Program-made: the position numbers and the translations under genes
Part shown: positions 19,860-33,659 of the stretch, one piece after another
Position numbering within the stretch: the stretch's first letter is position 1
Layout: each line of letters opens with the position of its first letter
Source: Cyclobacteriaceae bacterium
GTDB taxonomy: Bacteria; Bacteroidota; Bacteroidia; Cytophagales; Cyclobacteriaceae
Assembly (NCBI GenBank): GCA_028281285.1
Contig: JANQKF010000034.1
Coordinates: forward strand, 186,001-250,000
Direction: 5' to 3'
DNA: 64,000 nt
Notes under the pieces: model-generated
What the model was told of the DNA's origin: nothing
Database searches by the model: none
What the model saw: the letters and a program-made list of their open reading frames with translations, nothing else

Positions 19860-20759
19860 CTATTTGTCCAACGGGATAATTCGGTTTCTTACTCCAAACT
19901 TCTGTCCGAGTTCTGACATTTTTCGATAAAATGCCTTCTTATAAAATGAGGGCATGTCTATGCTATTGTCGAAGTACTTTTGGTATTTATCGATAAGGTG
20001 GGGGTAGTGTTTTTCAATTGCTCTAAAGACCAGCGTTTTACTTGAAGAAGGTTCGTTCCCAAAGAGCGTCAGATGTGCGGGAAAAATGTAATCTGCCCCT
20101 TGTTGTTTAAACTCGGCAAACATCTTTTCCAGGCTTTCTGTAGTATCTGAAATCCATGGTAAGAGGGGCATCATACTGACACCAGTCAGAAAGCCTTCTT
20201 TTTTGCATTTCGACATAGTCTCAAGGCGAATTTGAGGGCTTGTTGCGCCTGGTTCAAATATTCGCGAAACGGATTCTTCGATAGTTGAAAATGAGAAGGT
20301 CATGAAAGCACCTCGGTTTAATCCAGCAAGTTCTTTAGGAATGTTCTTACGGGCTCGCCTATCAATTTCGTTGATTAATTCGAGGTCTCTCAGAATAAGA
20401 TCCGATTTAGTGATTATGTGGACCGGGAATTCATACTTCAATATGATTTCTAAAAGTTGACGTGTCAGGCCTATTTCTTTTTCGATTTGCAGGTAGGGAT
20501 CTGTGGCTGATGAAAATACAATGATCCCATGCTGGCCTTTTTTGGCTTTGGTATGCAGGGCTTTTTCCAGAAGCTCCGGTGCATTCACCTTGACGCCCAG
20601 CTTTCTTTCCATATGCTCCCCATATTTACTTCCTCTTATATAACAGTATAGACAGTTGAATGAGCATCCACTATAAGGGTTTAGGGTATAGTCATCCAGA
20701 AACCAAGGATCTCTGCGCTTGGTTTTGTTCAGGATCGACTTTACTGTAATCTCATTCAT
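19860..20759 (-). CDS. SPL-like radical SAM protein
   Basis: 299 residues. The iron-sulfur motif is 'CSFNCLYC' (Cys32, Cys36, Cys39), placed as in the spore photoproduct lyase-like (Rv2578c-type) radical SAM proteins, with 'NPYSG' before it. Later motifs 'IVFSSATDPYLQIEK', 'IITKSDLILRDLELI' and 'TFSFSTIEESVSRIFEPGATSP' fit this family. It should bind a 4Fe-4S cluster and cleave S-adenosylmethionine. Non-sporulating members have no proven substrate; DNA repair is a guess supported by the upstream HEAT-repeat DNA alkylation repair-like gene, with which it overlaps by 4 bp. Confidence 0.85.
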   Translation of the reverse strand: MNEITVKSILNKTKRRDPWFLDDYTLNPYSGCSFNCLYCYIRGSKYGEHMERKLGVKVNAPELLEKALHTKAKKGQHGIIVFSSATDPYLQIEKEIGLTRQLLEIILKYEFPVHIITKSDLILRDLELINEIDRRARKNIPKELAGLNRGAFMTFSFSTIEESVSRIFEPGATSPQIRLETMSKCKKEGFLTGVSMMPLLPWISDTTESLEKMFAEFKQQGADYIFPAHLTLFGNEPSSSKTLVFRAIEKHYPHLIDKYQKYFDNSIDMPSFYKKAFYRKMSELGQKFGVRNRIIPLDK

Positions 20760-21532
20760 CTACTGAGCGATTTGGCATTAGCCATTGACAATCCAATATC
20801 AATCTTTTTCAGGAACCATCGGGAAAGTTTAGGGGTCTGGGAAATTTGAGCTTGGTTTCTGTGAATGATGTCAGGATGAAACTTGGCAATAGTCTTGGCT
20901 GCCCATCCAATTCCTTTCTTTATATATAGTTGAGTTTTGTGCCCGTTCTCCAAGATCAACAAAAAGAGCTCTTCGACATGGCCTTTTGGTAACCCTTTCT
21001 TAGTGGCATAATGGGCTGCAATTCCGACCGAACGTTGGACCCAAAGGTTTGGATGACTAGCCATTGATCGTAATTCTGTCAGGCTGTTTTTGAAATCGTA
21101 TAAGTTGCCCTCACCAAACACCCGTTCAGCAATGATGTCACAGGCATACCACTCATCTCCCTGGATGATGTGTTCGCGTGCCTTAGTGTATGCAGACGAA
21201 AGTCCTTCAGGCAGCTGCAATTGGATGATCTTGCCGATCAACGGATATGCAGAAATATGTCGAGCCTGAGCAGCTCGCTGAATAATGTATTCATTGATAT
21301 CAGGTGGCAATAGACGATGGAATTGAACGGCTAGTTTTTCTAACACGGGGAATTTCACTTTGTGACTCAGAATGTTTCCCTCTAATAAGCTCCACCCTTT
21401 ATTGAAGTCACCTGCCTGAAGCCATTTAATGCTGGTGGATAAGTCGGCTTCGATCGACTTGAAGGAAGTAGTAGTATGAATCACAAAAAAACGTTGGACA
21501 CCAAAAAAATTGAATAAGCAGCTACAAATCAA
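20756..21532 (-). CDS. AlkD-like HEAT-repeat DNA repair protein
   Basis: 258 residues, nearly all helical, with HEAT-like repeats (for example 'LRSMASHPNLWVQRSVGIAAHYATKKGLP' region and 'LENGHKTQLYIKKGIGWAAKTIAKFHPD' region) as in the DNA alkylation repair (AlkC/AlkD) superfamily, which removes alkylated bases without base flipping. The ATG at 21532 gives an odd hydrophobic start (MICSCLFNFF); a GTG at 21484 would start near 'IHTTTSFKSIEADL' and is an alternative. Stop overlaps the radical SAM start, so the two form a repair-like pair. Catalytic residues are not certain. Confidence 0.7.
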   Translation of the reverse strand: MICSCLFNFFGVQRFFVIHTTTSFKSIEADLSTSIKWLQAGDFNKGWSLLEGNILSHKVKFPVLEKLAVQFHRLLPPDINEYIIQRAAQARHISAYPLIGKIIQLQLPEGLSSAYTKAREHIIQGDEWYACDIIAERVFGEGNLYDFKNSLTELRSMASHPNLWVQRSVGIAAHYATKKGLPKGHVEELFLLILENGHKTQLYIKKGIGWAAKTIAKFHPDIIHRNQAQISQTPKLSRWFLKKIDIGLSMANAKSLSR

Positions 21533-21582
21533 TCACTTAGTTGAAGTAGATCAATTTAAAAGCAATCAAAGATAAGAGAAAC

Positions 21583-21626
21583 TGTGGATAACCATGTGTA
21601 TAACCCTGTGGATAACACTGTGAATT
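21583..21626 (+). promoter_or_regulatory. array of DnaA boxes at 12-bp period
   Basis: TGTGGATAA (21583-21591), TGTGTATAA (21595-21603) and TGTGGATAA (21607-21615) are three perfect matches to the DnaA box TTATNCACA read on the other strand, followed by a partial fourth (TGTGAATT, 21619). The starts are exactly 12 bp apart. An A+T-rich stretch (21520-21580) lies on one side. This could be part of oriC, a DnaA-titrating site, or DnaA control of the RNA that follows. Confidence 0.6.
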
Positions 21627-21639
21627 GAGACGTGGGAAA

Positions 21640-22291
21640 CTTGTTGAAAACTAGAGGGTTACAAAGTTTGCATGTAAAGTTATTGATAGTACCTTAGACA
21701 TACCAAGTGAGGGATAAAGAACAGAAGGTAAGACTTCTAATCTCTCTCCGGGGGAAGCTCGGAAAATTGTAGTGCAAGGTTCGAAGTCGACAGACAACGA
21801 TCTGAAACAGTAAGTCATCAAGTCATTGCTTGGGTATTTGACTTGAGGCTGGTTAAAGTTACTAAGGATCCTTCGGGTGAGTGGGTAACGGAACCCAACC
21901 GGGAGGATATTCTTCGGAAAATCCTTCGATGACCGAGCTGCCAGGGTATGGTGTCACCACCATCTCTGTACAGTTGATGAATCTTCGATTGGCCTTCGGG
22001 CGGGTCGGAGAGGACCAACTGTCGAACACCGCTGATCGCAAGTGAAACGGTAGGGCGTGGCTCGCAGAGATTGACCTTATGGGACAGTCTTAAGCTGCAT
22101 GCTACATTTTAATTGCCATCGTACGAAGTACAGGCATAGGGCGAAGCCGGAGTCAGGTAGATTCCCGAAACCAGTAGCTTGGGCCACTGGGCTTAGGATG
22201 AAGTTCTTAACAGTAGCTTGGCGTATTGCAGTATCTACGGATAATGCAAAACGAGTGGGGGCGAGTCAAATCGTCCCCCGCTTTTGTTATT
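21640..22291 (+). ncRNA. large structured RNA of unknown family (candidate)
   Basis: This is the only long gene-free stretch (21533-22347). It is richer in G+C than usual intergenic DNA here and is full of local hairpins: TCAAGTCA/TGACTTGA (21818-21846), TGGGT/ACCCA (21882-21897), GGATaTTC-TTCG-GAAaATCC (21905-21924), ATGGTG-TCAC-CACCAT (21948-21963). It ends in an intrinsic terminator at 22255-22291. RNase P landmarks (GAGGAAAGTCC), tmRNA ends, SRP RNA motifs and group I or II intron cores were looked for by eye and not found. The 5' end is not defined; 21640 is a guess after the DnaA boxes. ORFs in it are short and unlike proteins. Confidence 0.5.
22255..22291 (+). terminator. intrinsic terminator of the candidate RNA
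   Basis: Stem GTGGGGGCGA pairs with TCG-T-CCCCCGC (one bulged T) around a GTCAAA loop and is followed by TTTTGTTATTT on the + strand. Confidence 0.8.
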
Positions 22292-22314
22292 TGGGGGTAT
22301 TTTTAAAATACTGG

Positions 22315-22342
22315 AAAAAGCCACTGGGGAGTGGCTTTTTTT
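22315..22342. terminator. bidirectional intrinsic terminator
   Basis: Perfect 11-bp stem AAAAAGCCACT/AGTGGCTTTTT with a GGGG loop, T-runs on both strands. It lies just after the minus-strand thioredoxin-fold gene and also backs up the terminator of the RNA candidate. Confidence 0.85.
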
Positions 22343-22347
22343 ATGAA

Positions 22348-22818
22348 CTAGTCTTCAATCTTCTTCATTTCATCCATCAGCTTCCGAACCGCCTTTTTGT
22401 TCAGAAATGCATCATACTGAAATAGGATGTCGTATCTTGAATTTAGAACAACTAAGGTAGGGTAGTTAAGTACTCCATTTATCGTACCAAGCGTCTCAGC
22501 AAGTTCATGAATACCGGTAGTTGGTCCTGAAGGTTTGAATTTGAAGGTGTATCCCCGAAACTTGATAGGTTCTTCCTGCTCGGCATTCAATTCTATAAAG
22601 TAGTACTCATTGTCCAATCGTTGTTGAATGCTCTCTTCTTTGAATACCTTGTTTTCCATAGTCTTACAGTAGTTACACCAATCAGTGTGTATAAAGACCA
22701 TTACTTTTCTCTGTTCTATCCTTTGAAGACTGTCCAAATCTTCAAACTGTCGATAGATCTGAGCCTGCGTTAGATATGAGGAACCCAGTAGGCCGAAAAT
22801 GAATAAAATCCTTTTCAT
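22348..22818 (-). CDS. thioredoxin-fold periplasmic protein
   Basis: 156 residues, signal peptide about 1-19 (YLTQAQI). Active-site motif WCNYCK (Cys-x-x-Cys, about 48-51) after 'KVMVFIHTD', and the cis-Pro in 'LNYPTLVVL'. This is the DsbD-gamma/thioredoxin-like plan, so it can reduce or isomerise thiols in the periplasm. Its start shares one base with the stop of the TonB-dependent receptor, so the two are translationally coupled. The receptor has a CxxC pair in its plug, a plausible direct substrate. Confidence 0.82.
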   Translation of the reverse strand: MKRILFIFGLLGSSYLTQAQIYRQFEDLDSLQRIEQRKVMVFIHTDWCNYCKTMENKVFKEESIQQRLDNEYYFIELNAEQEEPIKFRGYTFKFKPSGPTTGIHELAETLGTINGVLNYPTLVVLNSRYDILFQYDAFLNKKAVRKLMDEMKKIED

Positions 22819-33175: not shown

Positions 33176-33390
33176 TCCGTAAGTTCTTCACAATGAATTC
33201 CGCAAGTTTGGACAAGTTTGATCACTTCTTTTTGACTGGTGTCGTCTTGGGCTTCAATCCTCAGGACCTTGTCGATATCTTCCATATCAACCGACCAATC
33301 GGTGATGGAAGGGTAGAAGGTGAACAGCGATTTCACAGCTCTGACCATGCTATGTGTCGCGATATCGGTTTTTAGAATAAAGAGTTGCAT
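33172..33390 (-). CDS. small HMA-like (ferredoxin-fold) protein without CxxC
   Basis: 72 residues. 'LFILKTDIATHSMVRAVKSLF' then 'WSVDMEDIDKVLRIEA' and 'EVIKLVQTCGIHCEEL' follow the beta-alpha-beta-beta-alpha-beta order of heavy-metal-associated domains, but the metal-binding CxxC loop is replaced by THSM. Similar orphan proteins occur in Bacteroidota. It is translationally coupled to the MDR gene and lies 35 bp after the XRE gene. Function unknown. Confidence 0.65.
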   Translation of the reverse strand: MQLFILKTDIATHSMVRAVKSLFTFYPSITDWSVDMEDIDKVLRIEAQDDTSQKEVIKLVQTCGIHCEELTD

Positions 33391-33425
33391 GTTGTTGTCG
33401 AGTTTTGATTTTGGGCTCTCTTGAA

Positions 33426-33659
33426 TTAACTGTTTTTGTTGTCATCGTATGAGAATACTTCGTTCAACGGTACCTCGAATACATTAGCGATTCGAAACGC
33501 CAGCTCAAGTGTAGGAGAGTACTTACCTTTTTCTATCGCTACGATTGTCTGACGAGTTACCCCGACTAATTCAGCTAATTGTTGCTGAGTCATTTCCTCC
33601 TTCATAAAGCGAAGTGTCCTGATATTGTTGCTGATCTTATGTTTTGTCTGCTTTGCCAT
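33426..33659 (-). CDS. XRE-family small repressor
   Basis: 77 residues, one helix-turn-helix (about 18-70; 'MTQQQLAELVGVTRQTIVAIEKGKYSPTLELAFRIANVF'), the YozG/Xre-like single-domain form. Its start shares one base with the stop of the upstream membrane-protein gene. This pairing of a small membrane protein with an HTH protein is common and suggests the membrane protein senses a signal for the repressor. The operator is probably the palindrome at 34163. Confidence 0.88.
   Translation of the reverse strand: MAKQTKHKISNNIRTLRFMKEEMTQQQLAELVGVTRQTIVAIEKGKYSPTLELAFRIANVFEVPLNEVFSYDDNKNS

Follow-up and report, generated by a model that had tools for sequence, protein, structure and literature searches.

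The window that we analyzed, a stretch of 64,000 nucleotides, contains two minus-strand ORFs (20756-21532 and 22348-22818) that flank exactly 815 bp (21533-22347). This is the largest interior gap between ORFs of at least 100 aa, ahead of a runner-up of 483 bp at 33176-33658, and the window edge at 1-854 is likewise free of ORFs of that size. The ranking ignores one 108-aa plus-strand ORF inside the gap (22099-22425), which we judged unlikely to be coding and attributed to chance because the region is full of indels among relatives, where compensatory changes are also found. With this ORF set aside, the gap limits confirm the gene-free 815-bp stretch of the original prediction, and the raised G+C content that had also been reported is indeed seen at 21800-22249 (0.51, against 0.37-0.46 around it). 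The fold of 21702-22342 has a minimum free energy of -244.1 kcal/mol (z = -6.65), and none of 20 shuffles was as good.

Comparison with homologs leads us to assign the following features to this stretch:

21583 to 21627, plus strand: array of DnaA-box-like sequences TGTGNATAA on the RNA strand, with boxes at 21583-21591, 21595-21603 and 21607-21615, a degenerate fourth at 21619-21627 and a 12-bp period
21632 to 21653, plus strand: near-invariant block GTGGGAAACTTGTTGAAAACTA between the array and the promoter, from the alignment
21667 to 21670, plus strand: putative promoter -33 element TTTG, 19 bp before the -7 element
21690 to 21697, plus strand: putative promoter -7 element TACCTTAG, of the Bacteroidota-type consensus TAnnTTTG
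21702 to 22342, plus strand: predicted RNA, 641 nt long to the second terminator and about 587 nt to the first, from covariance models R1 and R2
21703 to 21708, plus strand: 5' strand of the closing helix P1, CCAAGU, which pairs with 22216-22221 and covaries across the class
21709 to 21746, plus strand: 5' domain, in which helix P2 (21709-21715/21740-21746) encloses helix P3 (21724-21727/21734-21737), with the conserved core GAGRGAUA
21748 to 21762, plus strand: hairpin P4, with double-sided changes at 2 of 5 pairs
21808 to 21811, plus strand: 5' strand of the long-range helix PL (partner 22094-22097), here CAG/CUG plus one U-G, which closes the variable domain
21812 to 22093, plus strand: variable domain, which differs among lineages and includes the example hairpins of the original prediction
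22210 to 22221, plus strand: 3' core ACAGUA, then the P1 3' strand GCUUGG, from alignments of homologs
22222 to 22253, plus strand: hairpin P6, with a CUACGG (UNCG-type) loop in many homologs
22254 to 22288, plus strand: first intrinsic terminator, in the form seen in other genera
22297 to 22311, plus strand: hairpin after the invariant UUUGGGGG, in Roseivirga only, which never varies and so speaks neither for nor against itself
22315 to 22342, plus strand: second intrinsic terminator, in Roseivirga only, with double-sided changes at 6 of 10 pairs and 98.8% of cells paired

The RNA had originally been drawn from 21640 onwards. We read 21640-21701 as its promoter, so that the transcript is expected to start near 21702; the structured RNA itself stands, ending at about 22288 or 22342, and the terminal and second terminators that had been announced correspond to the two terminator-like hairpins at 22254-22288 and 22315-22342. 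Among 39 homologs, a TTG lies 18-21 bp before the -7 element in 31, against a mean of 4.3 and a maximum of 9 in 500 shuffles, and the exact TAnnTTTG is found in 11, a looser -7 element having been a selection criterion for these 39. According to passages of PMC9723704, the flavobacterial TAnnTTTG box sits at -12 to -5, and we therefore placed +1 at 21702, one base before P1. A first promoter reading, TTG-N19-AAAGTTTG, one step upstream, was dropped, with other genera showing TAnnTTTG directly before the 5' end; under the adopted reading, AAAGTTTG holds the -33 element.

Distribution and pairing of the predicted RNA

When 39 genomes were searched by BLAST, the region was found in its own genome and in 17 of 18 congeners, usually split into a 5' block and a 3' block, and the 20 genomes from other genera gave no match. 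The one congener that was missed (G017) is 80% complete, and covariance model R1 also matches 17 of these 18. A pattern scan returned 14 contigs, assigned to Roseivirga pacifica, R. echinicomitans, R. spongicola, R. ehrenbergii, R. seohaensis, R. thermotolerans, unnamed Roseivirga and two MAGs labelled Cytophagales/Cytophagia. The NCBI taxonomy puts Roseivirga in Roseivirgaceae, Cytophagales, Cytophagia; our genome samples follow the GTDB taxonomy, which we take to place the host in the family Cyclobacteriaceae, class Bacteroidia.

Model R1, which was built from the 5' domain alone and holds nothing of the 3' domain, matches 39 of 390 genomes of the host family. Besides the host genome, these are 17 congeners and 21 genomes that belong to 14 further genera. 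In 20 of these 21, the 3' part (ACNGYA core, CUUGG-like strand and hairpin) follows about 140-530 nt downstream, and the terminator is also present in those 20 loci wherever the examined stretch reaches far enough. The converse model, R2, was built from 29 sequences of the 3' domain with nothing of the 5' end, its automatic structure keeping only P6. At E<=0.001 it matches 183 of the 390 family genomes (44 of 84 genera) and 8 of 345 genomes of the phylum sample, whose non-class share is not given, 7 of the 8 lying in the host family and 1 elsewhere in the class. At E<=0.01 its matches cover 59 of 390 order genomes and 40 of 395 class genomes; the order, class, phylum and family samples overlap. 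The 5' core lies upstream in all 20 R2 loci retrieved from other families (L179-L198), where it was located by script in 16 and by eye in 4. The script asked for 4 of 6 P1 pairs and some of its rows are chance ones, for which reason its output does not serve as a pairing test here. In one comparison of homologs, both ends were obtained for 32 of 34 entries, the exceptions being L082 and the second copy in L103. Since 207 of the 390 family genomes gave no R2 match at E<=0.001, either some genomes lack the RNA or some of its forms escape the model.

One R1 match (G072, locus L080), without a downstream 3' core and hairpin, was judged not real, and so was one R2 match (G615, L165). In G290 (L082), where the listed R1 match lies within the RNA, the 5' end of the RNA gave 20.2 bits and the core was read by eye.

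Members are about 230 to 700 nt long across the family and class; the originally estimated size of 600-650 nt thus holds for Roseivirga, whereas members measuring about 230-300 nt occur in other genera. Some genomes give 2-4 matches, some of them in tandem (G104, G116, G255, G019), and paired copies of the RNA gene lie close together at L097, L103, L106, L161, L164 and L174. The host genome carries a second, shorter copy near 291,740-292,010 of G000:C25 (L157, 290200-293000), at a distance of about 84 kb downstream from the copy in the window; congeners G001 and G014 have such a copy as well (L158, L159).

The conserved neighbor had been expected to be a thioredoxin/TonB receptor pair. By tblastn it is instead the glutaminyl-tRNA synthetase side that is shared: in 13 of 16 Roseivirga loci the RNA is preceded by this synthetase or by the two genes that adjoin the RNA in the window; in L004, L005 and L010, neither the synthetase nor those two genes were found within about 1.5 kb upstream. 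In the window, a probable radical-SAM gene (read by eye) and the next gene, at 19860-21532, lie between the synthetase and the RNA, and this pair also precedes the RNA in 4 of the 16 congener loci (L002, L003, L006, L009), the synthetase having been found in nine others. The gene downstream of the RNA is convergent, and other genera have different neighbors. In one genome (L077), a run of GGCTCACAGATTACACAGATTTGCACAGATTT-like repeats extends just downstream of the RNA, from about 1830 to at least 2300.

The original prediction had proposed a search for compensatory changes among relatives, and such changes are found, together with conservation of the RNA, among the Roseivirga homologs. When 17 Roseivirga sequences were aligned, near-identical blocks appeared joined by hairpins whose bases differ yet still pair. 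Over 62 pairs in 9 helices, 92.0% of cells are paired (shuffles 82.7, sd 0.6), 29 pairs show a double-sided change (shuffles 20.8, sd 2.3) and covariation reaches a score of 0.393 (shuffles 0.196, sd 0.011), all figures that are biased in favor of the structures, which were derived from the same sequences. None of 500 shuffles reaches the pairing, the double-sided count or the score, 18 reach the count of further pair types, and sliding the partners by 1-3 columns cuts the pairing to 40-51%.

Individual helices contribute unequally. P6 shows double-sided changes at 14 of 14 pairs, both in the 17 Roseivirga and in 29 family members, with a covariation score in the 29 sequences of 0.864 against 0.308 when shuffled (0 of 500 shuffles reach it). 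PL shows them at 4 of 5 pairs, with 82.4% of cells paired in the 17 Roseivirga. The 5' domain taken alone is weaker: its 8 double-sided pairs compare with 5.1 in shuffles and are matched or exceeded in 7 of 500, its number of pair types is reached by 199 of 500 shuffles, and its covariation score is 0.298 against 0.174, which none of 500 reaches. P2 is near-constant in Roseivirga, so that the pairing is its sole support, and P5 is 50.6% paired in the full 17-sequence alignment (A6) and 91.8% in a shorter one (A1).

The example hairpins given originally fall in the most variable part of the RNA; those at 21818-21846 and 21948-21963 were recovered as described, and the one placed at 21905-21924 sits at 21911-21932 in the fold. 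By eye, the variable domain of genus g96 (L075, L076, L105) contains repeated modules of the form GAAGGGG-hairpin-CUGAGACGGGAAACCGCAGAA, from which we suppose that the middle of the RNA may grow by duplication.

The closing helix P1 was compared over a wider range. The 5' end, (C/U)CAAG(U/C) with variants, is complementary to the strand after ACNGYA. Loci with a -7-like element, the core and a terminator-like tail were kept (57) and thinned to 39 at 90% identity, with no criterion on pairing. In these 39 nonredundant loci, 95.3% of cells are paired against 89.0% with the 3' strands shuffled (sd 0.9, maximum 92.3; 0 of 2000 reach it), counts that kinship inflates and in which L185 and L197, given a wrong 3' strand by a first-match rule, are scored as mismatches despite a fully paired alternative. 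The paired types include CCAAG/CUUGG, UCAAG/CUUGA, CCAAA/UUUGG, CCAAU/AUUGG and CAGUU/AACUG, and several distinct types of this kind appear hard to explain other than by pairing. The sixth, innermost pair fails in 7 of the 17 Roseivirga. When a lone sequence is folded, its 5' end pairs elsewhere, with UUAUUUGG in a 3' stretch present only in Roseivirga; we prefer the P1 partner because four Roseivirga with UCAAG have CUUGA yet keep UUUGG.

Relation to known RNA families

The scan of all Rfam models that the original prediction had called for returned no family at its gathering score in the window (Rfam 15; best E in the region 0.84), and in 38 homolog loci searched at E<=0.5 we saw no credible match, only four weak ones (best E 0.02) plus one neighboring tRNA. 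With no credible Rfam match, with conservation and with covariation, the earlier claim of a large structured RNA of no recognized family is upheld, and the locus almost certainly encodes a member of a new structured RNA family, as judged by comparison of homologs. What is new here is an RNA family without a relative in Rfam, not a function.

It is very unlikely that the RNA is a diverged form of a known housekeeping RNA, be it 6S RNA in particular or RNase P RNA, tmRNA or SRP RNA. The absence of a 6S match from the host genome (RF00013, E<=1, locus included) does leave room for a 6S-like role, the model finding 6 of 14 control genomes and missing the Bacteroides control. Like 6S RNA, our RNA would be a stand-alone noncoding RNA with pairing between its 5' end and its 3' region; its predicted fold is, however, branched, with a P1 of 5-6 bp in place of the long 6S-like rod with a central bubble, and RF00013 does not match here. 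The other candidates are opposed by the lack of a credible Rfam match in the 38 loci and by their own whereabouts. RNase P RNA lies elsewhere (G000:C6:192834-193147), and RF00010 gives no match at the locus. A full tmRNA lies elsewhere in 5 of 5 relatives; in the host genome, RF00023 yields six sub-threshold matches only, one of them a tRNA-Ala and one at a contig end, and ARAGORN detected neither a tmRNA nor a tRNA at any of the 18 loci that it scanned. For SRP RNA, Rfam gave no match at threshold at the locus.

OLE, GOLLD and ROOL belong to the large ornate bacterial RNAs (PMC12286853). They are elaborately folded and have their own transcription units; their families, which we take to be included in Rfam 15, gave no covariance-model match at the locus or at the homolog loci. 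The RNA described here is like them in being large, elaborately folded and apparently its own transcription unit. It differs from them in matching no Rfam family, in measuring about 230-300 nt in some members from other genera and in having an upstream DnaA-box array. The flavobacterial small RNAs Rfp1-89, such as Rfp18, belong to the same phylum and share the TAnnTTTG promoter type; compared by description only, they differ in that Rfp18 is conserved in its genus, that their median length is 176 bp and that 'DnaA' occurs 0 times in the main text of the paper (PMC9723704). Our full-text searches of open-license PMC papers did not find the family, which does not imply its absence from print, and the strings 'Bacteroid-' and 'Cytophag-' are absent from the main text of two surveys of bacterial structured RNAs (PMC11109978, PMC8632094).

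The tandem copies in some genomes and the variable middle would also suit an RNA of a mobile element (a group II intron, a retron or an IS200/IS605 guide RNA) or a leader or riboswitch of a neighboring gene. We consider this extremely improbable, given that no reverse transcriptase or transposase was noticed by eye among the neighboring ORFs, that the upstream neighbors are common to 13 of the 16 Roseivirga loci, that the downstream gene is convergent and that the RNA appears to have its own terminator.

The upstream array of DnaA-box-like sequences

The array at 21583-21627 had been absent from the original prediction. Its three boxes are exact matches to TTATNCACA and read TGTGGATAA, TGTGTATAA, TGTGGATAA at 12-bp steps upstream of the RNA, followed by the degenerate fourth, and it could be aligned with 16 Roseivirga homologs. 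In the 154 bp before the RNA of 39 nonredundant homologs, the RNA strand carries 57 boxes with at most one mismatch and the opposite strand carries 2, against a mean of 2.6 and a maximum of 7 in 30 dinucleotide shuffles of these regions. Nine Roseivirga sites account for 25 of the 57, and 30 other sites for 32. At least one box is present in 28 of the 39 sites (19 of the 30 outside the nine Roseivirga sites), and none within one mismatch was found in the other 11. These are the second Roseivirga copies L157-L159, L172, and seven loci from other families (L184-L188, L194, L197), a few of which by eye carry TGTTAATAA- or GTTCATAAG-like repeats with an equal period. Across genera, the boxes lie about 60-140 bp before P1, and their commonest spacings, at up to two mismatches, are 12 (37 pairs), 24 (21), 11 (16) and 23 (13). 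The triple-box pattern, at up to three mismatches, occurs only at the RNA locus in all four Roseivirga genomes searched, and no instance of it turned up in the two other genera that were scanned.

According to passages of PMC11317965, E. coli DnaA prefers, by ChIP-seq, boxes that are 2 or 3 bp apart. The 11-12 bp period of the array is the geometry of such gaps, and by its sequence the locus thus has at least two DnaA boxes that stand 2-3 bp apart close to a putative promoter. The likeness to the double DnaA boxes of E. coli lies in this spacing outside oriC; the differences are that the target here would be a structured RNA gene, that three or four boxes stand in a row and that the arrangement recurs across genera. 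DnaA control is the simplest reading of the array, and it is rather likely that most members of the family are under such control.

A locus with DnaA boxes might instead be oriC, in which case the boxes would be its core and the adjoining conserved sequence would be origin DNA rather than RNA. This would agree with the triple-box pattern occurring nowhere else in the four Roseivirga genomes, and with the lack of a three-box cluster (at most one mismatch, within 150 bp) in the 280 kb that were sampled near the origin indicated by the GC skew of G001 (G001:C1:3320001-3600000, L214-L227). In the GC skew sampled along that genome, however, an arm of mostly positive values starts near 3.4 Mb and runs past zero to about 1 Mb, the remainder being negative; the negative-to-positive switch falls at about 3.36-3.40 Mb, and the RNA locus lies at 0.504 Mb between positive stretches; it is also off the skew switches in G223 and G116, at coarse sampling. 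Several genomes have 2-4 matches, and the compensatory changes and the promoter and terminator signals fit an RNA. The locus being neither at a GC-skew switch nor single-copy, and varying in position, we discarded a replication origin as highly improbable. One mixed-orientation three-box cluster was seen in the sampled stretches of G001, at 1.8095 Mb.

An array that is oriented, has double-box spacing and lies outside the skew-derived origin could also be a DnaA-titration or DnaA-reactivation locus, comparable to datA or DARS of E. coli, with the RNA being separate or a secondary function. We regard this as quite unlikely, since the distance between array and promoter is kept across genera and each tandem copy in L097 and L103 has upstream boxes of its own, both of which fit gene control better.

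A last alternative is that the array binds another regulator with a DnaA-like site, the RNA then being an ordinary stress- or nutrient-regulated small RNA. It draws on the repeats TGTTAATAA or GTTCATAAG found in some other families and on a different palindrome at the second copy in the same genomes; against it, TGTGGATAA is the DnaA box TTATCCACA read on the opposite strand, and the 2-3 bp gaps match the preference of DnaA. We hold it to be rather unlikely. The repeats were noted by eye upstream of L184-L188, L191 and L193, all from other families, with a similar 11-12 bp period, and look as if a binding site had drifted, which would be unusual for DnaA. The second copies (L157-L159) have no DnaA boxes and carry a GTCATCG...GCGATGAC-like motif upstream instead, and the two copies may therefore answer to different regulators.

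A proposed mode of action

Comparison of homologs shows an RNA family, its predicted structure, its promoter and terminator signals and the box array. We propose that the locus is a stand-alone noncoding RNA gene that would be transcribed from a housekeeping-type promoter of its own. For most homologs we picture DnaA binding the oriented boxes upstream of this promoter and activating it, so that expression would be set by the replication state of the cell. The extreme 5' end of the transcript would fold back onto the 3' domain, and the GAGRGAUA and AACNGYA strands would be held together beside P1. The RNA would then act in trans rather than as an antisense RNA, offering this core to a protein or a protein complex.

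Action in trans seems most likely because promoter and terminator signals belong to the RNA itself, the downstream gene is convergent and the neighbors change among genera. A core presented to a protein is suggested by the conserved bases, which sit beside P1, and by a middle that differs among homologs in sequence and in length, with about 140 to 630 nt separating the two core strands. The protein partner, and a role in growth or cell-cycle control, are put forward as hypotheses only. Taken as a whole, the explanation by a trans-acting stand-alone RNA of a new family, probably under DnaA control, appears to us somewhat likely; a protein-binding regulatory role tied to replication or growth is a possible but decidedly tentative part of it.

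A bolder version, which we think unlikely, is that of a class-wide RNA in a replication-control circuit, driven by DnaA at initiation, whose core would bind DnaA, the replisome or the transcription machinery and feed back on growth or initiation. If this is true, it would be, to our knowledge, the first case of a structured RNA whose dedicated role is to link the activity of DnaA with the cell cycle. The family reaches 183 of 390 sampled genomes of one bacterial family and beyond, yet it is without an Rfam 15 match, and its natural size variants point to the parts that may be essential. Since the array is unique in the four Roseivirga genomes searched, the proposed link between replication and a noncoding RNA would be directly testable in culturable marine bacteria.
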